The translations under genes and the position numbers were made by a program. The notes below the pieces were generated by a model. That model saw nothing but the letters and a program-made list of their open reading frames with translations. It was not told the origin of the DNA and did not search any database. From positions 310,001-374,000 of the forward strand of contig NZ_JAGGQQ010000008.1 in assembly GCF_018613195.1 (NCBI RefSeq): 64,000 bases of DNA. The letters are read 5' to 3'. Shown piece after piece: positions 30,139-35,401 of this stretch. Position 1 is the stretch's first letter. Each line of letters opens with the position of its first letter. This DNA comes from Bacillus sp. ISL-45. GTDB lineage: Bacteria > Bacillota > Bacilli > Bacillales > Cytobacillaceae.

Positions 30139-31974
30139 CTATACAACAAATTCTTTTTCTGCTTTTGTATTTATATCGTACTGCTGAATGATCATTTCGA
30201 TAAACTGCTCTGCGTAATAGGCATCAAACTGTTCGCCAGCGCATGAGCGTATTTCCTCAATTGCTTCGGCAAAGCTTTTCGTTTTCTGGTAAGGACGCTC
30301 CGTTGTCATCGCATCAAAAGAATCAATAATGCATAGCATCCTGGCAAGCTTTGGTATGCTTTCTCCTTTTAGACCGTGAGGGTAGCCTTTTCCGTCGTAG
30401 CGCTCATGATGCAGCTCTACCAGCGGGATTAGTTCTTGAAGCTCCTTATTGGTAGAAATGATTTCTTTTCCCCAGATTACATGCTTTTTGACCATTTCCC
30501 ATTCGTGAGGGTCGAGCTTTCCCTTTTTGTTGATGACATCCCTCGGTATTTCCAGCTTACCAATATCGTGGACAAGGGCGCCCAGCGTAAAAATACGGCG
30601 TTCATGATCCGAAAGCTCAATTTTTCTGGCAAAATCAACTGAATACTGAAAAACCCTTTTGCTGTGGCGGTACGTATAAATATCCTTAGATAAGAAAATT
30701 TTTAACTGCTGCTCTGCCTCTTCGAATTGTTTTTCAAAGGAATGAGAAGAATCTAGTTGCTGATCGGTTTTATCATAGATATGGACCATGTTTTTACCCT
30801 GTGCTTTAGAAAAATAAAGTGCCTGATCTGCCTTATTTAAAAGTTCAGCAATATTATAGGTCTCTCTTTCAAATTCAGCAATTCCAGCAGAAAAGGATAG
30901 GCAGCCATAAGGAAGGATTTCAACACCATTTAACGCTGTATCATTAATGGTTTTCCTCACCTTATCAAGGAAAGTAAATGCCTCTTCCTTCGTTATATTC
31001 GGCATAAGGACAGCAAATTCTTCACCGCCGTATCGAGCAACCAGGAATTCCTGTTTTTTTGAATGCTGGCGAAGCAGCGTGCCGAATTCTTTTAACAGTC
31101 TGTCACCCTGGATATGTCCGAACAGGTCATTGTATTTTTTAAAATCATCAAGGTCGATCAGCGCAACGCTGAGAGGCTTGTAGTTTTCCTTAAGTGATAT
31201 AACTTCCTTTTCGAGTTGTTCCTTAAAATAGCCATGATTATATAGTCCGGTCAAGTAGTCATGCTTTGCTTTCTGTGAAACCACCTGGAGATTCTGAAAA
31301 TGCTGGTTAAAGGCAACTGACAGCAGAAGTGCAATCGAGACGAATAAGAAAAGCCCGAAAATATTCTCATGCTGCATTAAGATTGCTAGCACCAGCGAAA
31401 GGAGGAAAATAATGAAATAGCTAACCTTGAAAGTCCTATCTCTAAGAAAACCACCGAAAACATTCAACAGACTTTCTTTTTGCGCTAGGAAAAAATAAGT
31501 GCTGACAAGAGTGGTATTCAAAATGAAATAGACCGTTAAAGCGGCAATATAAGGGATGATATTTGATGAATTAATATCGCCGACTTCTCCGCCAAACAAA
31601 AGGAATGCGTAGTAGGCTGAAATAATCATGATGGAATAGATAGAGAAGTTGAACACATGCTTCCACCATTTAATTTTCCACTGAATGACTGTAAAAATAA
31701 GGGCGAACATGAATAAGATATCAAGTGTGTCACCCAATCCATACAGGAATATAGCTGCAAGGAAAATGGCGGAATCCATAGAGATGGAGTTGCCATCTGG
31801 CGGCAGAGGAATAGGGTACTTATCAACAAGCAGAACTGCACCAATAAGTGCATATATTAATACAGTCTTTGAGCTAGCGTCAAAATGTACCTGATGGAGA
31901 GCGACGAAGCCGAAAATACCAATCAAGGAAATTAATATTAAATAGAGATTTGAAGCGTTTGTTATTTTCTGCAT
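30139..31974 (-). CDS. Membrane GGDEF / HD-GYP dual-domain c-di-GMP protein
   Basis: About 611 residues: seven or so N-terminal membrane helices (10-225), a GGDEF domain (about 235-405) with intact signature (YGGEEF) and DYLTGLYNHGYF, then an HD-GYP domain (425-605) with HD at about 469-470 (LVHDIGKLEIP) and HHERYDGKGYP. It may both make and break c-di-GMP; HD-GYP enzymes hydrolyse it to pGpG or GMP. Both signatures look active. The ATG at 31974 has weak GTGAGTG-like support; an in-frame GTG at 31983 is the alternative. A DUF5317 gene and a 28-aa peptide gene lie just upstream on the same strand, so all three may be cotranscribed. Confidence 0.88.
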   Translation of the reverse strand: MQKITNASNLYLILISLIGIFGFVALHQVHFDASSKTVLIYALIGAVLLVDKYPIPLPPDGNSISMDSAIFLAAIFLYGLGDTLDILFMFALIFTVIQWKIKWWKHVFNFSIYSIMIISAYYAFLLFGGEVGDINSSNIIPYIAALTVYFILNTTLVSTYFFLAQKESLLNVFGGFLRDRTFKVSYFIIFLLSLVLAILMQHENIFGLFLFVSIALLLSVAFNQHFQNLQVVSQKAKHDYLTGLYNHGYFKEQLEKEVISLKENYKPLSVALIDLDDFKKYNDLFGHIQGDRLLKEFGTLLRQHSKKQEFLVARYGGEEFAVLMPNITKEEAFTFLDKVRKTINDTALNGVEILPYGCLSFSAGIAEFERETYNIAELLNKADQALYFSKAQGKNMVHIYDKTDQQLDSSHSFEKQFEEAEQQLKIFLSKDIYTYRHSKRVFQYSVDFARKIELSDHERRIFTLGALVHDIGKLEIPRDVINKKGKLDPHEWEMVKKHVIWGKEIISTNKELQELIPLVELHHERYDGKGYPHGLKGESIPKLARMLCIIDSFDAMTTERPYQKTKSFAEAIEEIRSCAGEQFDAYYAEQFIEMIIQQYDINTKAEKEFVV

Positions 31975-32046: not shown

Positions 32047-32133
32047 TTAGATAAGTCTAAAACCAGATGTCAAAGCAATAATTAAAGAACCAAGGATAAT
32101 TGCGTTAAGTACGATACCTTTTGTATTTTTCAA
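32047..32133 (-). CDS. Hydrophobic 28-aa peptide, translationally coupled to the DUF5317 gene
   Basis: The sequence TTGA joins the TGA stop of the upstream gene to this TTG start. GGAGGTG, 7 bases before, lies inside the last codons of the upstream gene. The product is K/N-rich at the start (MKNTKG), then one hydrophobic helix (IVLNAIILGSLIIALTSG) and ends FRLI. Such spacing is rarely accidental. Function unknown; a small membrane subunit is a reasonable guess. Confidence 0.55.
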   Translation of the reverse strand: MKNTKGIVLNAIILGSLIIALTSGFRLI

Positions 32134-32921: not shown

Positions 32922-32952
32922 AAAAAAAACACGCTGTAATATGACAACGTGT
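32922..32952 (-). terminator. Terminator of the PapR-like peptide gene
   Basis: On the minus strand ACACG-T-TGT pairs with ACA-G-CGTGT, followed by eight T. It lies 70 bases past the stop of the short gene, supporting a separate transcript. The rest of the 296-base gap to 32726 is AT-rich, with only a possible promoter for the DUF5317 gene. Confidence 0.75.
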
Positions 32953-33022: not shown

Positions 33023-33154
33023 TTAGTGTTCGAATGGCAGGTCAACAGTTGGCGTTGGTGCTTCTGCATGTGCGGAAGTTTGAGCGACAGGTACAGCGAA
33101 TGACATAATACCTAGAATAGCGATTCCGAATAAAATTTTAGATAGTTTTTTCAT
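33023..33154 (-). CDS. PapR-like signalling pre-peptide ending in DLPFEH
   Basis: 43 residues from ATG 33154, 7 bases from a strong AGGAGGG; the preceding ATG 33157 is only 4 bases away. Basic start (MKKLSK), a hydrophobic export segment (about 7-23), an Ala-rich cleavage region (SAHA-EA), then TPTVDLPFEH at the C-terminus. PapR, the signal of PlcR in the Bacillus cereus group, is about 48 residues, is exported and cut, and its active C-terminal peptide is ADLPFEF. The match of the end, size, export signal and divergent PlcR-like gene together support a pheromone precursor. In B. cereus papR lies downstream of plcR on the same strand; here it is divergent. Confidence 0.78.
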   Translation of the reverse strand: MKKLSKILFGIAILGIMSFAVPVAQTSAHAEAPTPTVDLPFEH

Positions 33155-33272
33155 CATAATCCCTCCTGAGAAAAATATACCATGTTATTAAATTATAGGT
33201 ATTTTTACTTACAAGCGATTATTAGGGTATTTTGTTGGGATTTTCCGATAGAAACCCCTTTTATCGACAACG

Positions 33273-33292
33273 AATATTCTTATAGGAATATT
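33273..33292. promoter_or_regulatory. Near-perfect 20-bp palindrome before the plcR-like gene
   Basis: AATATTCTTATAGGAATATT, 18 of 20 positions symmetric, ends 25 bases before the start codon. The right part, CTTATAGGAATATTTAAA, recurs as CTTATGAGAATATTTAAA before the metalloprotease gene. It has the size of a PlcR box but not the B. cereus sequence. Candidate autoregulatory site. Confidence 0.55.
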
Positions 33293-33317
33293 TAAAGATA
33301 GGATAGGAGATTTACAT

Positions 33318-34196
33318 ATGACAGAATTTAATTTTAAAAATCTAGGTGAATCGATACATTCCATAAGAGTCAAACTTGGAATCAGTCAAAAGGACCTTGC
33401 CAGCGGAATTTGCAGTCAATCGCAGATCAGTAAGATTGAAACAGGAGAAATTAGTCCCTATATCCATACTCTAGTGAATATTTCTGAAAGATTGGGTATA
33501 AACACCAACCACTTCATTAATCAAATTTCCAAAGAACATTATGAGTTTGTCACCCAGTCGAAATATAGAGTACGTGAGCATATTAAAAAGAAGGACTATA
33601 GGGAAGTAAAAAGGATAATCAGTAAACTCGAGAAGCATCCATCTTTTCAAAATATTGAGGAACGACAATTCATTTCCTGGCATAAAGGGGTGTGTATTTA
33701 TTATCTGGATCATGATTTTGAAAGAGCCATTCAAGCGTTGAAGGCTGCCCTGGATTTAAAGGATTCCATCCAGGCGACTGAGCAGGATATCCAGATCATC
33801 AATAGTACAGGAATTATTTATGGGGAAAAAGGAGAGTGGGAAGCGGCGAAGGAATTATTTTTGAAAGCTCAGGAAATTTATAATAAGGCTTTATATCCGA
33901 TGGATTTTTCAATCTTGATCAGGGTTTACTATAATTTAAGTAAAATTTATTACAGACTCGCTGATGGTCATAGTGCTTTGTCTGTAGCGGACAAAGGGAT
34001 TTCTTTGGCACTTGAGAATGATTCGAATTACTTGCTGGGTGAGCTTCTATATCAAAAAGGGTTTATTTTTGCTGAGCGGGGCGATGTGACACAGGGTATT
34101 TATTTCCTGCAGCAGGCAGGTGCGATTTTTAATCTTCAGGAAAAGGAAGGTTATATACAATTGGTGCAGGACAAACTGGCGATGTTCCGGCAATGA
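33318..34196 (+). CDS. PlcR-like RRNPP quorum-sensing regulator
   Basis: 292 residues, close to the 285 of B. cereus PlcR. HTH_3 DNA-binding domain (8-62) with LGESIHSIRVKLGISQKDLA, then TPR-type helical repeats (about 75-290) of the kind that bind a re-imported peptide. The first 55 residues align by eye with PlcR (KLGSEIKKIRV...LTQKQL; ICHQSEVSRIESG against ICSQSQISKIETG). A PapR-like peptide gene is divergent 160 bases away, which argues for PlcR rather than a lone Xre regulator. Start ATG 33318 follows AGGATAGGAG. A secreted metalloprotease unit downstream on the other strand is a likely target. Confidence 0.85.
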   Translation: MTEFNFKNLGESIHSIRVKLGISQKDLASGICSQSQISKIETGEISPYIHTLVNISERLGINTNHFINQISKEHYEFVTQSKYRVREHIKKKDYREVKRIISKLEKHPSFQNIEERQFISWHKGVCIYYLDHDFERAIQALKAALDLKDSIQATEQDIQIINSTGIIYGEKGEWEAAKELFLKAQEIYNKALYPMDFSILIRVYYNLSKIYYRLADGHSALSVADKGISLALENDSNYLLGELLYQKGFIFAERGDVTQGIYFLQQAGAIFNLQEKEGYIQLVQDKLAMFRQ

Positions 34197-34214: not shown

Positions 34215-34245
34215 AAAAAAAGGTGTAGAATTGTATCTACACCTT
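34215..34245. terminator. Bidirectional terminator between convergent genes
   Basis: AAGGTGTAGA / TCTACACCTT around ATTGTA, with six A on the left that become T on the minus-strand transcript. Confidence 0.85.
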
Positions 34246-34255
34246 TGAGCTCAAA

Positions 34256-34813
34256 TTATTTTTTATCCTTTAAATCTTCTGGAATAACCTGATTCTTGTA
34301 TGCTTCCTTGAAGGCCTTCATAATTTCAGATTTTTTAGCTTCGCTATCGATTTTGAGATCGCCGTAAGCTGGGACTACAGTATGCCAGTTTTCAGATTCT
34401 AAGTATCTTGTTGCGAATAAATATGTTTCACCCGGTACAAGAAGCTGATCGTCTTCAATCAGAAGAAGTTCTGTTTCGCCTTCTTCATTTTCCAGGTAAC
34501 CACCTTGTTGATTGACAAGAACCTCACCAGACAATTTTCCTTTTACCGTTGAGATGACTTCAACTGTAAACTGTGTCTCCGGACCCCCATCAAGTGATTT
34601 TGTTCCAGCTTGTTCGATGACTTTTCCAACGAAAACATTATCAGTTGCTCCTACAAGTTTTCTTTTATCTGAAAAATCATCAATGAAATTTGCATGTGCT
34701 TCCCTTACAACAACGTTATCTGCACTTGCTTGTTGGTTATTTATATAATTTGCACCCAAAAACCCGCCTGTAATGACGGCTGCTAAAGTTAGTGAGAAAG
34801 TAATCTTTTTCAT
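34256..34813 (-). CDS. Secreted protein of unknown function (185 aa)
   Basis: Signal peptide (1-31, cleavage near ASA-DN). The mature part is beta-rich: VFVGKVIEQ, TQFTVEVISTVKGKLSGEVLVNQQGG and a VPGETYLFATRYL strand, OB-like in order, with an acidic loop (ENEEGETE) and a Lys-rich helical tail. No family is recognised. It starts 21 bases after the metalloprotease stop with AAAGGAGG, so the two form an operon and this may be a partner, inhibitor or co-secreted effector of the protease (inference). Confidence 0.65.
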   Translation of the reverse strand: MKKITFSLTLAAVITGGFLGANYINNQQASADNVVVREAHANFIDDFSDKRKLVGATDNVFVGKVIEQAGTKSLDGGPETQFTVEVISTVKGKLSGEVLVNQQGGYLENEEGETELLLIEDDQLLVPGETYLFATRYLESENWHTVVPAYGDLKIDSEAKKSEIMKAFKEAYKNQVIPEDLKDKK

Positions 34814-34834: not shown

Positions 34835-35335
34835 TTAATAGCCCCAAAGGGAATGATAGTCAGATTTGTCATGCGAGCCTAAGCTGGTCTTGGAGGTGAC
34901 ATATTTGTGCATAATTTGATCAGAATAACTATGTGCTAGTCCCAATGCATGTCCAAGCTCATGTGTGAAGACATTCTGCCTCTTAGCCGTTGTATAACCA
35001 TTTAGATAATAGTTATTCAGCTGGATTCTGTCTGCGCCTGATAAATTGCTGTATAATCCCGCCCAGGTTACATCTGAGCGATTAGCATCCTTGAAGGATA
35101 GGTCCTCAACGGTAGTAGATGTATCACCTAGGATATTGATTGGATTGATCCCGTTCCAGGTAGAGATCGCAGCGCTCCTGGCGGTTGTCCATTTTGTTGT
35201 TCCATGGTAAGTACCCCAGCGGATTTCCTTGCCGTCGACTGAATCGTAGCCCAGAAAATGGGCTGACGCACCTGAAGGAAGGAGCATGAGTCCCAAAGCC
35301 CCGACAATGATTCCTTTTTTAATGAATTTTTTCAT
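34835..35335 (-). CDS. Secreted matrixin-type zinc metalloprotease
   Basis: 166 residues: signal peptide (1-25, cleavage after ASA), then a small metzincin domain with the zinc motif HELGHALGLAHS (H125, E126, H129, H135) and a downstream Met-turn (IMH, M142). That is the HExxHxxGxxH motif of matrixins and astacin-type enzymes; the size is near the minimum. The start at 35335 follows AAGGTGGGAT; an upstream in-frame ATG at 35413 would overrun the signal peptide. No propeptide with a Cys switch is seen. A 16-bp palindrome and a motif shared with the plcR-like promoter lie upstream. Confidence 0.85.
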   Translation of the reverse strand: MKKFIKKGIIVGALGLMLLPSGASAHFLGYDSVDGKEIRWGTYHGTTKWTTARSAAISTWNGINPINILGDTSTTVEDLSFKDANRSDVTWAGLYSNLSGADRIQLNNYYLNGYTTAKRQNVFTHELGHALGLAHSYSDQIMHKYVTSKTSLGSHDKSDYHSLWGY

Positions 35336-35401
35336 TTTGTATCCCACCTTATAATCATTTATATACACGATCATATCTATTGCATTTGGAAAACTAGTTC
35401 T

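Follow-up and report, generated by a model that had tools for sequence, protein, structure and literature searches.

The PlcR-like receptor gene and its putative pheromone gene

The 64,000-nt stretch of Bacillus sp. ISL-45 analyzed here, designated the window (positions 310,001 to 374,000 of contig NZ_JAGGQQ010000008.1), contains a gene for a PlcR-like receptor that faces a small gene for a putative pre-pheromone. The two probably constitute an autoinducing pair for PlcR-type peptide quorum sensing, belonging to the RRNPPA superfamily and located outside the Bacillus cereus group, in which PlcR was defined; the pair is real, and the PlcR-type system is likely to be working. The pair and its surrounding signals are as follows (window coordinates):

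33318..34196, plus strand: receptor gene, 292 aa, with an Xre-type helix-turn-helix (HTH) and an RNPP_C/tetratricopeptide repeat (TPR) domain, PlcR-like
33023..33157, minus strand: pre-pheromone gene, 44 aa, signal-like N-terminus, C-terminal end VDLPFEH
33162..33167, minus strand: ribosome binding site AGGAGG of the peptide gene, read from the sequence
33305..33309, plus strand: ribosome binding site AGGAG of the receptor gene, read from the sequence
33174..33197, minus strand: putative −10-like elements of the peptide gene, inferred from the sequence (TATAAT, 33192-33197; ATGGTATATT, 33174-33183)
33275..33290, no strand assigned: 16-bp palindrome TATTC-TTATAG-GAATA, proposed operator of the pheromone gene (extended form, 33273-33292, AATATTCTTATAGGAATATT)
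32929..32952, minus strand: terminator-like hairpin 3′ of the peptide gene (9-bp stem, loop of 6, T-run)
34219..34246, no strand assigned: terminator-like hairpin between the receptor gene and convergent genes for secreted proteins, listed on the minus strand, with a stem readable on the plus strand too

The initial annotation had proposed that a regulator with the size and HTH-TPR layout of PlcR lies opposite a small pre-peptide gene with its own ribosome binding site and terminator. Both open reading frames (ORFs) are present, in divergent orientation and with their start codons 160 bp apart, and the peptide gene is preceded by AGGAGG and followed by a terminator-like hairpin (33162-33167 and 32952-32929, both on the minus strand) with a fold z-score of −2.3.

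The receptor matched the Pfam families RNPP_C (PF18768, 82.4 bits, cut-off 26.5) and HTH_3 (41.9 bits, cut-off 23), and its best match in a sequence search of the PDB was PlcR (2qfc, E = 3.8e-20), with which it shares 27–28% identity. PlcR was also the best match, with Foldseek and VIA, of an AF2 model of the receptor (predicted local distance difference test, pLDDT, 93.6). In sequence and in predicted fold alike, the nearest solved relative is PlcR, rather than Rgg, ComR, NprR, Rap or PrgX, the structural second look excluding only the families that it listed. This agreement among Pfam, PDB, Foldseek and VIA bears out the annotation of a PlcR-type receptor and rules out an unrelated Xre regulator. 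A Rap-Phr system was also discarded, because the receptor contains HTH_3, whereas Rap has a three-helix bundle and no HTH, and because Rap matches scored far below PlcR. Consistent with membership of the RRNPPA superfamily, we found an RNPP-type TPR peptide-binding domain and an adjacent small propeptide gene, whose product is presumably exported, judging from its signal-like N-terminus.

The last six residues of the 44-aa peptide (MMKKLSKILFGIAILGIMSFAVPVAQTSAHAEAPTPTVDLPFEH) are DLPFEH. In 200 order-1 Markov shuffles of the 64 kb, ORFs of 30–60 aa ending in P[FY]E[HFY] appeared with a mean of 0.02 per 64 kb, and none ended in [DE]LP[FY]E[HFYN]. Between the peptide genes of the window and of the sister genome G080 (ca. 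90% nucleotide identity to the window) there are six synonymous and no nonsynonymous changes, the pattern expected of a translated, selected gene. The PFE-type end is kept among relatives, as DLPFEH in four close genomes (those of the window, G080, G088 and G075) and as LPYEH in G081 and G094. Additionally, pherotype IV of PapR from the Bacillus cereus group is SDLPFEH (PMC8140105, PMC10017872), so that the last six residues of the window peptide equal a known pheromone end of that group. The active PapR given in the initial annotation, ADLPFEF, is thus valid for one B. cereus pherotype and not as the sole form. Neither the window peptide nor any other sequence of its genome matched the Pfam family PapR (PF05968); among 397 genomes of the order, 122 had weak matches (E ≤ 1) and none exceeded the cut-off, in a sample probably devoid of B. 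cereus-group genomes. The window peptide had no match among named plasmids. The annotated lack of other B. cereus hallmarks was checked in part and agrees with this result, as well as with the absence from the 64-kb window of any match to the full 16-bp PlcR box (TATGnAnnnnTnCATA).

A palindrome proposed as operator of the pheromone gene

AATATTCTTATAGGAATATT was the sole inverted repeat above the script threshold in the divergent region, and its core, TATTC-N6-GAATA, occurs in all five other close loci, with two copies in L038 and one in each of the others. The gap from the box to the peptide start was 117, 121, 119, 117, 120 and 118 bp in L001, L035, L036, L037, L038 and L039, respectively, values that depend on the start codon chosen and can shift by up to 6 bp, with alternative ATGs 3 and 6 bp into the gene in the window and in L039. 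The distance from box to receptor start (27 bp in the window) varies among these six loci, and in L038, where the peptide gene lies beyond the end of the receptor gene, the box is found with the peptide gene. Because the peptide gap is steady (117–121 bp, 6/6), the receptor gap variable, and the box of L038 follows the peptide gene, the box seems to be part of the pheromone promoter, as its putative operator. Within that promoter, ATGGTATATT resembles the ATGnTATATT/ATAGT of other close loci. The box shares with the PlcR box (TATGnAnnnnTnCATA) its 16-bp length and the TAT...ATA ends, and lacks G4, which is essential in the latter (PMC2464732). A search of the main text of open-licence papers found no paper on this operator, on a divergent PlcR-like lineage or on the receptor-peptide co-variation described below.

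Distribution, gene order and related loci

A receptor match at E ≤ 1e-20 was present in 99 of the 193 family genomes, representing 18 of the 25 genera. Close orthologues occur in five of the 21 genomes of the genus, including that of the window, as well as in G094, from another genus; their identities to the window receptor are 63% (G088), 59% (G075), 54% (G081), 52% (G094), and 96 and 93% for the two pieces present in G080. The fetched loci yielded 99 distinct receptors (128 raw matches minus repeats and proteins shorter than 230 aa, with the split G080 receptor left out), and a plausible pheromone gene could be assigned to 48 of them: 24 are divergent, 23 lie downstream in the same orientation and one lies downstream on the opposite strand. 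In this assignment, as in the column scan described below, a prefix list removed the hits of six small ORFs considered implausible, the peptides of L096, L115 and L119 were added by hand, and L013 was re-entered by hand; 51 receptors had no peptide by the rules used. Divergent order, noted in the initial annotation as a departure from PlcR-PapR, is therefore shared with many relatives and common in this lineage (24/48), contrary to the statement in a 2022 survey that the pheromone of Bacillales RRNPPA systems is encoded immediately downstream, although its figure legend gives upstream or downstream (PMC9765709).

Divergent precursors mostly have a single C-terminal pheromone (LPFEH, LPYEH, LPYEN, ELPSMH, ELPSVH, ELPTIF, ELPTVY, ELPSEY or DLPNQH), and downstream precursors often contain tandem copies (ADLPSQHS, AGIPSEHS); a quick tree put the receptors of downstream peptides and those of ELP-type divergent peptides into separate groups. 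The genome of the window holds both kinds. Its second PlcR-like receptor (L004 4335-5577, G000:C21) has a downstream peptide with repeated ADLPSQHS units, an array broken in the record by a stretch of N; in eight related loci there are two to six copies.

In G080 (L037 5549-8265) the receptor gene is split by a 425-aa transposase gene, which we take to be IS110-like, and the pheromone gene and box are intact, so that this strain is apparently a signal maker without an intact receptor. Genus g22 (L067, L071, L076, L077 and L106) contains tandem PlcR-like receptor genes with no adjacent pheromone gene detected by the rules used, and these receptors are possible eavesdroppers. A receptor search of phages produced seven distant records only, from Enterococcus, Listeria or unassigned.

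Co-variation of receptor and peptide

Residues Pro4, Glu6 and Phe7 of PapR are crucial, and Glu6 contacts Lys89, Gln237 and Tyr275 of PlcR (PMC6568020). The equivalents of these three contacts in the window receptor are Lys92, Glu242 and Tyr279. PlcR residues Asn159, Asn201 and Lys204, which we assume to line the peptide pocket, partly by analogy with docking on PlcRa, correspond to Asn162, Asn206 and Lys209. Column 89 was the best separating column in a scan of receptor columns, being Lys in 7/7 receptors with a [FY]E peptide and in 0/41 of the others (which have Leu, Val, Ile, Ser, Met, Arg or Trp); other good separators were column 159 (Asn, 7/7 vs. 3/41) and column 204 (Lys, 7/7 vs. 2/41). 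The eleven GIPSEH peptides and one LPSEY peptide have the Glu without a preceding aromatic residue, and their receptors have Trp or Met at column 89. Six receptors with Lys89 for which no peptide was found (L011, L066, L067, L071, L077 and L106) are outside the 7/7 count.

The receptors with [FY]E peptides plus L066 do not form one clade (approximately unbiased test, p-AU 0.02, for a group chosen after the tree was seen). The association of Lys89 amounts to two changes on the tree, with one independent pair on well-supported branches and at most two contrasts. With only two changes, the co-variation agrees with the PlcR-PapR structure and is no statistical proof. Both the tree test and the column scan included L029, whose assigned peptide belongs to its neighbor.

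Candidate targets in relatives and in the genome of the window

In G081 (L038), the second box precedes a lactococcin-972 gene (PF09683, 31.7 bits, cut-off 22) by 70 bp; next comes a gene for a 739-aa DUF1430 membrane protein, with a bact_immun_7tm match just below cut-off. PF09683 was found in this one of the 21 genus genomes; neither it nor the associated membrane protein TIGR01654 was found in the genome of the window. The pair of G094 also adjoins a lactococcin-972-type operon, with an export ATP-binding cassette protein (TIGR03608, 262.5 bits, cut-off 254.85) and a precursor scoring below cut-off (15.6 bits), and G088 has a one-mismatch box before an aminotransferase operon.

Of 17 distant loci scanned with a 24-bp profile of the receptor-proximal element, 10 had an additional site scoring above 15, a count that leaves out an extra hit of 15.5 away from the receptor in L181. 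The background was 0.13 hits above 12.5 per 14 kb, from mononucleotide shuffles of three loci. Nine of the ten further boxes are 118–128 bp before an 89–119-aa gene, homologous by eye, for which the three of nine scanned had no family above cut-off; the tenth is 159 bp before the gene for an FDLD class I lanthipeptide precursor (20.8 bits, cut-off 20), with LanB and LanC. The 89–119-aa gene stands beside ELP-type pairs in L168 (7195-7512), L169 (8067-8393), L170 (5932-6273), L171, L172, L174, L175, L176 and L178.

The 64-kb window has no second exact box; one-mismatch matches at 31515 and 31623 are inside an ORF. Its genome contains 17 TATTC-N6-GAATA sites vs. four for a reversed-pattern control. 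A regulon search of this genome with TATWMYTNTAGGMATATTT (two mismatches) gave 14 matches vs. 13 for the reversed-pattern control, and with AATATTCYTATARGAATATT (three mismatches) seven places vs. four. One of the latter (L212, G000:C3:185215-185234) is a three-mismatch palindrome ca. 100 bp before the gene for a 244-aa secreted-looking protein, too weak to claim. Within the genome of the window, the pheromone gene is thereby the sole supported, putative target.

Immediately beyond the receptor gene there are two convergent genes for secreted proteins:

34256..34813, minus strand: 185-aa protein with a signal-like N-terminus and no family above cut-off; same place in G080
34835..35335, minus strand: matrixin-type metalloprotease gene, start MKKFIKKG (PF00413, 30.4 bits, cut-off 24, in a family search run with 34838-35344, which has three extra codons at the start)

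The initial annotation had envisaged a pheromone circuit controlling surface proteases, and it was right as to a PlcR-type pair outside the B. cereus group. That the matrixin gene is the main output of the pair is, however, unlikely. Two of the 21 genus genomes have the gene, and they are the two with the pair at this site; the pattern points to joint inheritance but goes no further. Against its control by the pair, no box with zero or one mismatch precedes the matrixin operon (the best within 400 bp has two), for which we rejected protease control as the main output; a terminator-like hairpin separates the convergent genes; and the matrixin gene remains, 98% identical, in G080, where the receptor is interrupted by the transposase gene. 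The sole match in the window to the relaxed PlcR target ATGhAwwwwTdCAT (35322-35335) is on the matrixin start codon, inside coding sequence, and is probably due to chance.

A putative autoinducing circuit and its alternatives

From the pair itself, its fold class and conservation, and the box with its spacing, we infer the following circuit. The 44-aa peptide would be exported with removal of its signal peptide, shortened to the C-terminal 6–7 residues ending in DLPFEH and re-imported. The mature peptide would then bind the TPR pocket of the HTH-TPR receptor, in which Lys92 is the equivalent of PlcR Lys89, and the loaded receptor would bind TATTC-N6-GAATA, ca. 119 bp upstream of the pheromone gene, leading to more pheromone. 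This positive feedback is proposed because in B. cereus the expression of the cognate peptide is itself under the control of the activator PlcR (PMC2464732). Lying so close to the start of the receptor gene, this box may in addition modulate expression of the receptor. Extra boxes in some relatives could put lactococcin-972, a class I lanthipeptide and the small unassigned gene under the same control, and in the genome of the window the matrixin gene would be a candidate second target by co-inheritance only.

Several observations weigh against this circuit, besides the dependence of the peptide gap on start-codon choice and the few tree changes behind Lys89. The third Glu6 contact, PlcR Gln237, is Glu242 in the window receptor, and Glu in all seven receptors with [FY]E peptides. 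Searches of NCBIfam with the receptor gave only HTH or TPR models, all below cut-off, and none for PlcR. The lactococcin-type operon of G094 has no box within one mismatch, and a B. arachidis receptor has the box and the Lys, with no peptide found. Finally, there are 10–14 boxes in five other genomes with a close orthologue and 5–11 in four genus genomes without it, so that the box is hardly enriched, and 12 of the 16 other boxes in the genome of the window are inside ORFs; no dispersed regulon is thus visible.

Peptide-relieved repression operates in some Rgg and PrgX systems, and the receptor could likewise repress the pheromone promoter until the peptide relieves it, which would still be a PlcR-type pair, without an activator. 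We regard this as quite improbable: the box of the window is close enough to the receptor start to be able to overlap a receptor promoter, and the receptor-proximal element of distant relatives contains a −10-like hexamer, TATAA(T/C), but the position of the box before the peptide gene, upstream of the −10-like elements, is activator-like, and the nearest relative, PlcR, is an activator and has its own peptide under its control. There is also little reason to think that the system is decaying or orphaned and without present function in this strain. Its presence in the genus is patchy (5/21), the receptor is interrupted in G080, and a second target looked for in the genome of the window was not found; yet the window receptor ORF and both palindrome arms are intact, and the peptide gene shows synonymous change only. 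We give almost no credence to the small gene encoding a Phr-type peptide for a Rap phosphatase elsewhere, unrelated to the adjacent regulator, since the matches to Phr_nterm (NCBIfam TIGR04429, cut-off 25) of the window (26.7 bits) and G088 (28.7 bits) peptides are limited to the signal part and absent from the G075 and G094 peptides, the pair and box are co-conserved in two genera, the C-terminus is PapR-like and a receptor pocket residue tracks the peptide type.

A more tentative extension is that one PlcR-like receptor, its LP(F/Y)E pheromone and a shared operator form a portable cassette that passes between species and settles next to various exported weapons (lactococcin-972, lanthipeptide and perhaps others), the pheromone end having stayed near enough to B. 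cereus pherotype IV PapR for species to hear each other; we consider this possible rather than probable. PlcR-PapR is known from the B. cereus group, where it acts as a virulence switch, and the loci examined here belong to a large PlcR-like lineage, often with a divergent pheromone gene and its own putative operator. Several species have antibacterial-peptide genes next to the pair, and in two of these the operator precedes such genes. Given this operator and its spacing, the circuits can be tested directly, and targets may be readable from the sequence; moreover, the position at which peptide and receptor co-vary is one already known from the structure of PlcR-PapR, providing a natural series for pheromone specificity.

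Comparison with known systems

The pair resembles PlcR-PapR in the HTH-TPR receptor of similar length and fold, the precursor of ca. 45 aa, the C-terminal DLPFE plus a last residue (SDLPFEH in pherotype IV), and the conservation of PlcR Lys87, Lys89, Asn159, Asn201, Lys204 and Tyr275. It differs in the divergent peptide gene, whereas papR is immediately downstream of plcR (PMC9765709), in the palindrome TATTC-N6-GAATA instead of TATGnAnnnnTnCATA, in the change of Gln237 to Glu, and in the lack of a Pfam PapR match and of a visible genome-wide regulon. PlcRa-PapRa of B. cereus is similar in that PlcRa is a PlcR paralogue, papRa is upstream of the receptor gene and the pheromone, CSIPYEY, is related to PapR; in contrast, its precursor has 93 aa with an internal pheromone, plcRa is not autoregulated and no palindrome was found by the authors of that study (PMC3519770).

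The second system of the same genome (G000:C21) has a PlcR-like receptor 32% identical to that of the window and an LP-type pheromone, and differs in its downstream, same-strand peptide with tandem ADLPSQHS units and in the Arg at column 89; receptors of its group mostly had low promoter-element scores. RRNPP_detector reported many adjacent receptor-propeptide pairs, with 196 adjacent biosynthetic clusters (25 in Bacillaceae), some of them for ribosomally synthesized and post-translationally modified peptides; the available part of the report mentions no operator (PMC10075063). Some of the pairs found here may already be listed there.

Other observations at related loci

The Alkalihalophilus pseudofirmus OF4 plasmid pBpOF4-01 contains a related receptor and a divergent peptide, DLPYIHT (L204 4303-5882), beside a YcaO/SagB cluster for a thiazole/oxazole-modified microcin (TOMM), with no box scoring above 12.5 at this locus; the peptide ORF is missing from the incomplete PLSDB gene table. 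Two related proteins of 236 and 246 aa adjoin the DLPFEH pair of G075 (L036 6868-8348); they have signal-like N-termini and Cys-rich hydrophobic C-termini and look bacteriocin-like by eye, with no Pfam or NCBIfam match above cut-off. Within the window, an unexplained ORF for a hydrophobic product of 28 aa (32047-32133, minus strand) is situated directly 3′ of a DUF5317 gene.
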